Below are positions 46,362-47,768 of a stretch of DNA of 64,000 bases, piece after piece; positions within the stretch are counted from its first letter, which is position 1, and every line of letters starts with the position of its first letter. The stretch comes from Picosynechococcus sp. PCC 7003 (GTDB lineage: Bacteria; Cyanobacteriota; Cyanobacteriia; Cyanobacteriales; MRBY01), in contig NZ_CP016474.1 in assembly GCF_001693255.1 (NCBI RefSeq), positions 2,064,661-2,128,660 on the forward strand. Direction: 5' to 3'. The notes below the pieces were generated by a model. It was given only the letters and a program-made list of their open reading frames with translations, was not told the DNA's origin and did no database searches. A program made the translations under genes and the position numbers.

Positions 46362-46390
46362 TTTTGACCAAAAATAATGGGATACAAGCC

Positions 46391-46414
46391 CCGTCCTTCT
46401 AGGACGGCTTTTTC
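46391..46414 (+). other. Left-end hairpin of the tnpB element
   Basis: CCGTCC and GGACGG form a six-pair perfect stem with a five-base loop, followed by CTTTTTC. In the plus direction this would also terminate transcription coming from outside; the stop codon of the small RHH gene lies in its loop and stem. Confidence 0.7.
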
Positions 46415-46539
46415 TTAGATTTTAGACTCCTGATCAGCTCCCTTAATACATCCGTCTTGGTTCTGCCAACAGCATTGCAATACTCTTCTAGGAGCTCAAA
46501 CTCGTATTGCTCGATTCTAAAATCTAATCGTTTCTTCAT
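46399..46539 (-). CDS. 46-residue ribbon-helix-helix protein inside the tnpB element
   Basis: This small gene is divergent from tnpB, with 34 bases between the two ATGs. The protein begins KKRLDFRIEQYEFELLEEYC, with a DNA-contacting beta strand followed by two helices (second: TKTDVLRELIRSLKSK), the Arc/CopG ribbon-helix-helix pattern. The stop TAG is in the left-end hairpin. The likely role is as a dimeric regulator of the short shared promoter region, limiting tnpB or its own expression. It reads through without defects although tnpB is broken. It is too short for usual gene-calling limits, so may be missed in annotations. The fold is judged from pattern only. Confidence 0.72.
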   Translation of the reverse strand: MKKRLDFRIEQYEFELLEEYCNAVGRTKTDVLRELIRSLKSKKKPS

Positions 46540-46573
46540 GCCAATACCCGGTTTTATGCTGTACAATATTAGC
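46540..46573. promoter_or_regulatory. Shared divergent promoter spacer of the RHH gene and tnpB
   Basis: This 34-base spacer contains TACAAT (46562-46567) close before the tnpB ATG and no room for separate promoters. Operator sites for the RHH protein would be expected here. Confidence 0.4.
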
Positions 46574-47712
46574 ATGAAAGCAAAATATCAGTACCGATTC
46601 TATCCAACAGACCAGCAACGCTAGAGTTTAGCCCAGGTGTTTGGTTGTGTGCGGGTAGTTTGGAATGATGCCTTGGCGATTTGTCGGCAGTCTGAAAAGC
46701 TGCCCAGTAACAACGACTTGCAAAAATTGGTGATTACTCAGGCCAAGAAAACGGAAGAACGAAAATGGTTATCGACCGTTTCTAATATTCCGTTGCAGCA
46801 ATCGGTTGCTGATTTGGGTGTTGCCTACAAAAACTTTTTCGCCTCGCTCAAGGGCAAGCGAAAAGGAAAAAGAGTCGGTACTCCCAGGTTTAAAAAGAAA
46901 ACTGGGAAGCAATCGGCACGGTTCAGGATTGGTGGCTTTTCCATCAAGGGTGCTGAGGTATATCTTGCGAAAATTGGTAATGTGAAGCCGATTTGGTCAA
47001 GAGAATTACCATCCAATCCGAGTTCAGTCACGGTGATCAAGGACGCCGCTAACCGCTACTTCCTGAGCTTTGTAGTGGAGATTGAGCCTGTTCAAGTTGA
47101 TGCTAAAAACCACAGTATCGGCATTGATTTGGGTATCAAGACCTTTGCGGCAATGAGTAACGGGGAAATGATCAAAAGTCCAAGTTATTCGAAGCTGGAT
47201 AAGCGCCTGAGACGCAAGCAAAAGCAGTTTGCTCGTCAAGTGAAAGGCTCTAATCGTCGAGAGAAGACTCGGTTACAGATTGCCAAGCTGCACAACAAAA
47301 TCACTGATACCCGTAAAGATTTTCTGCACAAGCTATCGACTCGCGTGGTCTATGAGAACCAAGTGATCACGCTAGAAGATTTGAATGTGTCAGGCATGGT
47401 CAAAAACCGCAAGCTAGGCCGTGCGATCAGTGTGCAGGGATGGCGTGAATTTCGGGTGTTATGTGAGGCTAAGTCTGATAAATTTGGGCGGCAATTCAAT
47501 GTGATCAGTCATTGGGAGCCGACCTCTCAAGTCTGCTCAGACTGTGGCTACAACTGGAGCTCTCGGTTCGCTCTGTGCTTTGCCTCAATTGCGGCGCGGA
47601 ACACGACAGAGATGTAAATGCAGCCAGCAATATAAACAAAGTCGGGATAGGGCATTGCCACGACTTTAAACGGGCACGGCTCGACCGTAAGACTACTGCG
47701 GTAGCAAGTTGA
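46574..47712 (+). pseudogene. tnpB: TnpB RNA-guided nuclease, decayed
   Basis: TnpB is an RNA-guided DNA nuclease of the RuvC type and the ancestor of Cas12. The frame starts at ATG 46574 (KAKYQYRFYPTDQQR) but has an in-frame TAG at codon 17 (46622-46624), then continues from VFGCVRVVWNDAL. RuvC residues are present: Asp in GIDLGIKTF (47126-47128), Glu in TLEDLNVSG (47375-47377), and Asp in HDRDVNAASN (47611-47613). The last is in another frame after a shift near 47557. Zinc-ribbon cysteines (CSDCG, CLNCG) are likewise split. The shift fits loss of ten bases between two CTGG repeats. No full-length protein is expected unless the stop is read through and the frame restored. Confidence 0.88.
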
Positions 47713-47722
47713 AATGATGTGT

Positions 47723-47757
47723 CAAGAATCCCCGCGCCTTCAGGCCGGGGAGTATGT
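47723..47757 (+). ncRNA. Right-end hairpin and probable 3' part of the omega RNA
   Basis: CCCCG and CGGGG arms with an inner GCC/GGC pair frame the end of the element. In active relatives the guide (omega) RNA covers the tnpB 3' end and this hairpin, and the bases just outside form the guide. Here that outside sequence would begin near 47758. The RNA itself is inferred, not seen. Confidence 0.45.
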
Positions 47758-47768
47758 CAACAGAGTCG

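Follow-up and report, generated by a model that had tools for sequence, protein, structure and literature searches.

TnpB nucleases, from which Cas12 descends, are among the most abundant proteins of prokaryotes. In the IS1341-type (tnpB-only) members of the IS200/IS605 family, a tnpB gene with RuvC motifs lies between hairpins at the left and right ends, and the element has no tnpA of its own. In IS605-type elements with divergent tnpA and tnpB, a small left-end gene stands back-to-back with tnpB; it encodes the Y1 transposase TnpA and no regulator. Regulation tied to TnpB lineages is known from the TldR proteins, nuclease-dead TnpB repressors, in which TnpB itself is the RNA-guided regulator and catalysis is lost. 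CopG, the plasmid copy-number repressor (PDB 2cpg, 1b01, 1ea4), is a ribbon-helix-helix (RHH) protein with an inverted-repeat operator over its promoter region. Here we describe an IS1341-type element in the window, by which we mean the whole stretch of 64,000 nucleotides that was analysed (C1:2064661-2128660 of the 3.35-Mb genome of the cyanobacterium Picosynechococcus sp. PCC 7003). Compared with other IS1341-type elements, it has an extra RHH gene and a predicted operator in the tnpA slot, and we propose that the RHH protein is very probably a built-in repressor. CopG-type repressors and tnpA-less IS200/IS605 elements were already known; we rate the RHH-operator companion of tnpB as a new variant. 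A search of the open literature on TnpB and IS605 with RHH, CopG, repressor or accessory found no description of it, subscription papers and preprints being outside that search.

The RHH gene lies on the minus strand at 46399-46539, including its stop, and translates into MKKRLDFRIEQYEFELLEEYCNAVGRTKTDVLRELIRSLKSKKKPS (46 residues); it was assigned by frame reading, tblastn, AlphaFold2 and dN/dS. It is divergent from tnpB, whose ATG is at 46574, across a spacer of 34 bp (46540-46573). Its TAG stop (46399-46401) falls within the hairpin loop at the left end, CCGTCC(46391-96)-TTCTA-GGACGG(46402-07). In all of these points, frames and homologues confirm the initial annotation of this DNA. We rejected a 58-residue version that begins at an in-frame ATG further upstream (46573-46575), the extension of which is operator region and is unconserved in homologues. 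Forty-six residues is the right length, because conservation among homologues starts at the internal ATG, with the operator lying between the two ATGs. The window tnpB is disrupted by a TAG at codon 17 (46622-46624) and by a frameshift near 47.54-47.56 kb. The earlier contrast between an intact RHH gene and a broken tnpB is true as an observation, but it is uninformative, because two lesions in ~1.14 kb predict only ~0.25 lesions in 138 bp.

The RHH protein is predicted to be CopG-like in fold. The AlphaFold2 model (pLDDT 88.6) has helices at residues 11-24 and 28-42, preceded in the sequence by the putative beta strand KKRLDFR, in which residues 4, 6 and 8 are R, D and R. DSSP calls no beta strand in the monomer model. 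The best PDB matches in Foldseek were CopG structures, some of them DNA complexes (probability 0.97, TM ~0.7), so the structure prediction suggested at the outset led to a known repressor. Like CopG, the family has a length of 45-46 aa, a predicted RHH fold, an N-terminal MKKRL strand and an inverted-repeat operator over the promoter region, here a predicted one. Unlike these features, the similarity in sequence is marginal, as the family profile aligns to the CopG stretch MKKRLTITL with a profile E of only 0.47. The window RHH also differs from CopG in its probable role, as a regulator of a divergent gene for a transposon RNA-guided nuclease, and in an operator specificity that varies among elements. 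With Pfam RHH_1 the window protein scored 14.9 bits, below the gathering cut-off of 20.5, and 30 of 38 family members matched at E<=0.1 (best 2e-7). NCBIfam, Pfam and PADLOC yielded no model dedicated to this RHH family.

The spacer contains a predicted 23-bp operator, an imperfect inverted repeat (46544-46566; TTGTACAGCATAAAACCGGGTAT on the minus strand) at a distance of 4 bp from the RHH ATG. A putative tnpB -10 box, TACAAT (46562-46567, plus strand), precedes the tnpB ATG by 6 nt and overlaps an operator arm. An unconstrained inverted-repeat search proved noisy, and a dyad test with fixed geometry was used in its place. In the family the dyad has a constant span of 23 bp and an outer frame of TTGTA...TACAA, and lies ~4 bases from the RHH start. 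At this fixed position, symmetric pairs averaged 6.09 out of 11 over 46 representatives, while dinucleotide shuffles gave 4.59 (z 8.2); the symmetry peaked at a gap of 4 bp from the RHH start. Strong dyads were found in 34/65 RHH-linked tnpB upstream regions versus 2/35 of those without RHH. Of the 52 sites that possess a TAYAAT -10-like box, 37 place it exactly 6 nt ahead of the tnpB start, and in symmetric family members the other operator arm resembles a -10 box for the RHH gene. The spacer had been thought too short for independent promoters. This is not quite right; it is short, but accommodates two overlapping divergent promoters. The window operator is asymmetric (TTGTACAGC...CCGGG), a variant common to L132, L138, L099, L121, L082 and L084. 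As the sites of its closest relatives are asymmetric too, we take this to be a subgroup form and not decay.

The inner bases of the dyad appear to be matched to the protein. Residues 4 and 6 occupy the CopG positions that are predicted to contact DNA. Where these are R/D, the inner three bases are CAG or CAC; S/F goes with TAT, N/N with ATG or ACG, Q/S and Q/N with TAG, and I/N with GTG. Of two RHH proteins from this genome, the window's is of the R/D type and that of L006 is of the S/F type; the sites of L006 and L079 are symmetric. The dependence of the inner half-site bases on residues 4 and 6 was equalled in 0/2000 permutations for each arm, and the arms of one site agree far more than swapped arms do (0/2000). 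These sequence statistics point to a dyad operator at the gene's own promoter that is contacted by beta-strand residues.

The RHH gene is also under purifying selection. Between the window RHH and its nearest relatives dN is 0.06 and dS is 1.8-3.0, and the median omega over 509 RHH pairs with usable dS is 0.28; codon substitution is not neutral. Comparisons between elements show that the RHH gene and its operator have been swapped between TnpBs as one cassette. In L083 and L113 the TnpBs are 88% identical, whereas the RHHs are 60% identical and the operators are of the R/D and S/F types. Conversely, L132 and L082 have RHHs that are 88% identical and TnpBs that are 28% identical. In both directions, there is a sharp step in sequence identity at the border between operator and tnpB. 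Operator distance tracks the RHH given TnpB (partial Mantel 0.39, 0/2000), and tracks TnpB given the RHH far less (0.09, 65/2000). Such cassette exchange argues for the DNA site as the partner of the RHH, and against the TnpB protein in that role.

Several points weigh against a repressor that is matched to its operator. The dS of the window is saturated, and the permutations leave relatedness partly unremoved. A strong dyad is missing from about half of the RHH-linked spacers, and the site in the window is itself asymmetric. Adjacency alone can make the RHH and operator travel together; as physical linkage contributes, we give the Mantel result less weight than the coupling between arms and between residues and bases.

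The RHH gene is a part of the mobile unit. In Nostocales HT-58-2, three near-identical copies at different sites have 1374 bp in common, which run from the right end through tnpB, the spacer and the RHH to ~36 bp beyond the RHH stop; it is because the copies share the gene within this stretch that we place it inside the element. A tblastn search of the 291 cyanobacterial genomes sampled found the family in 59 of them, and a genome often has several copies. In 84,980 species genomes, a scan yielded 215 confirmed relatives; the best 80 of these are nearly all from named cyanobacteria, the exception being one metagenome-assembled genome labelled Tatlockia. Among the first 30 loci, 17 have a tnpB, detected by tblastn, that diverges directly from the RHH; the TnpBs encoded there are 25-80% identical to that of the window. 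When the locus set was enlarged, the divergent, fixed-distance arrangement was found in most high-scoring RHH loci, and the low-scoring RHHs were mostly solo. Thus, the frame is conserved and divergent in dozens of homologous elements, but most cyanobacterial tnpB genes are without it, and a universal presence in tnpB elements is ruled out. The RHH lies beside ~26 of 218 tnpB genes in nine genomes, which were chosen because most had the RHH, and beside 0 of ~29 top-scoring tnpB genes of other genomes. It is a feature of a subset of tnpB elements. Seven plasmid loci of other phyla had no RHH-tnpB pair, although a more diverged RHH may occur elsewhere, and phage records gave no RHH match. On three IMG/VR contigs classed as viral (L236, L237 and L238), the RHH adjoins TnpBs 57-80% identical to the window's. 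The initial suggestion that gene callers miss such frames holds only in part: two plasmid copies have no listed gene at the RHH (the plasmid gene table is incomplete), but others are annotated as CopG.

We propose a model, at the strength that comparative sequence data allow, in which the RHH is very probably an autorepressor, encoded in cis by an RNA-guided nuclease element. The comparisons supply a conserved divergent gene in a mobile unit, a predicted fold, a dyad, recognition coupling, exchange and purifying selection; from these we infer binding, repression, a leaderless promoter and a benefit to the element. The earlier proposal of a built-in repressor of tnpB is supported in the same measure by conserved divergence, the CopG-like predicted fold, low dN/dS and the covarying dyad. 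An RHH dimer, probably as dimers of dimers, would place its two-stranded beta sheet in the major groove at the 23-bp dyad. Bound there, the protein would mask the tnpB -10 box and, in members with a symmetric site, the RHH -10-like box as well. Both divergent promoters would then be shut off, because one operator arm is the tnpB -10 box and, in those members, the other is the -10-like box of the RHH gene. The tnpB transcript would be leaderless. TnpB and the RHH itself would be held at a low set level, and a burst of TnpB would be allowed when the element enters a cell lacking the repressor. In most copies the predicted target is a live nuclease gene. The RuvC D/E/D motifs of RHH-linked TnpBs are mostly kept in the alignment, with few exceptions (for example L031 and the truncated L015). 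We had considered that these TnpBs were nuclease-dead, as the motifs looked lost in a first search, but alignment revealed the variants GFDFG, FETLN and GRDENA. Unlike TldRs, the aligned RHH-linked TnpBs thus mostly retain the RuvC catalytic residues, and the predicted regulator is a separate protein, the RHH. The window copy is different. Its tnpB frame is broken, so the only targets left to its RHH would be its own gene and, in trans, other operators of that type.

Could the RHH instead be a transposition accessory factor, which binds element DNA and aids or directs transposition by TnpA in trans, like the relaxosome proteins NikA and TraY? The RHH does occupy the position that tnpA has in IS605 elements, some members have weak Pfam matches to NikA-like and TraY models, and the elements are multi-copy without a tnpA of their own. 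However, the dyad is at the promoters and not at the element ends, the recognition residues covary with that promoter dyad, and RHH-less elements are multi-copy too. We consider this role improbable.

We regard it as quite improbable that the RHH is an antitoxin-like partner that binds and neutralises the TnpB protein, with the operator being secondary. Antitoxins often have RHH folds (PMC8987985), the RHH shows weak RelB-like NCBIfam matches, and it adjoins a potentially harmful nuclease. Yet the protein is an RHH alone, with no C-terminal extension that could bind a toxin, and the genes are divergent and not in an operon as in type II toxin-antitoxin systems. Nearly the same RHH is paired with TnpBs that are only 26-32% identical, and PADLOC gave no match. 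An activator or anti-silencer of tnpB would share the anatomy of a DNA-binding protein at a divergent promoter, but we hold this to be very improbable, as the predicted site overlaps the -10 box and is not upstream of the promoter, and CopG, the closest structural relative, is a repressor. A captured passenger gene without function in the element, for which the absence of the RHH from most tnpB elements and the solo relatives in hosts might speak, is largely refuted by low dN/dS, conserved geometry, the coupled operator, repeated exchange and the fact that seven element copies have a second, diverged RHH at this position, and a chance frame is excluded by the homologues and low dN/dS.

The element itself spans approximately 46366-47760, as judged from left-flank homology and the boundaries of a multi-copy relative. 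Homology with five congeners in the left flank stops at 46363-46368. For the window copy we found no clean empty site; the homology of the nearest congener breaks off at the left end. The left-end hairpin, CCGTCC/GGACGG (46391-46407), resembles left ends elsewhere in the genome, and the right-end hairpin, CCCCGCGCCTTCAGGCCGGGG (47730-47750), is of the kind seen in the HT-58-2 multi-copy element. The disrupted tnpB (46574-47712, plus strand) was identified by reading-frame analysis, motif alignment and an OrfB_IS605 match (PF01385, at C1:2111726-2112070); its RuvC D and E motifs are legible ahead of the frameshift, and the third D is in the next frame. There is no tnpA inside the element. With an OrfB_IS605 tnpB and subterminal hairpins, it belongs to the IS1341 type of IS200/IS605. 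A search for an omega RNA at the right end gave no match in Rfam, which does not cover most omega RNAs.

The same genome has 17 detected tnpB genes. The slot beside them holds this RHH in 2, a diverged 45-aa RHH in 7, tnpA in 1 (L166) and neither in 7. The diverged RHH (MNKSEVLKIRLTSEDLARLKAF...) belongs to a second IS1341-type element (L168-L170 and L172-L175), where it is divergent from a 455-aa tnpB frame, and it has relatives in 30 of 386 cyanobacterial genomes. Two ~190-bp MITE-like derivatives in this genome (L003 and L004, around 1501-1700) carry both end hairpins without tnpB or RHH. On plasmid pNsp_c of Nostoc sp. ATCC 53789 (L253:607-786), the gene for a TnpB that shares 78% identity with the window's is divergent from a small gene of a different kind (59 aa; MTFQKKHKLGFISDKPLAKDPICLKLKPGM...), which does not match the RHH profile and perhaps encodes an alternative small regulator at this position. 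L022, L023, L054 and L149 have N/N-type RHH genes and clear TTGTAATG dyads with no tnpB detected nearby; they are possibly tnpB-less derivatives of the element. Truncated RHH remnants adjoin tnpB at G118:C1:2576626-2576712 and 3512823-3512912, which suggests that the RHH has been lost in some elements.

The last part of our model is tentative, and we think it possible but rather doubtful. RHH-operator pairs may form exchangeable immunity groups, in which a resident RHH silences, in trans, any incoming or sister element that bears the same operator, and elements escape by swapping in a cassette of different specificity. If this is true, the R/D, S/F, N/N and other cassettes would be changed as temperate phages change their immunity type. 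It would also account for near-identical TnpBs with different pairs and for very different TnpBs with the same pair. To our knowledge, little is known about the control of TnpB transcription. If confirmed, a built-in repressor whose recognition code can be read would provide a testable answer for a subset of tnpB elements, as well as a small set of orthogonal repressor-operator pairs. Frames of 40-60 codons at the ends of transposons merit attention.
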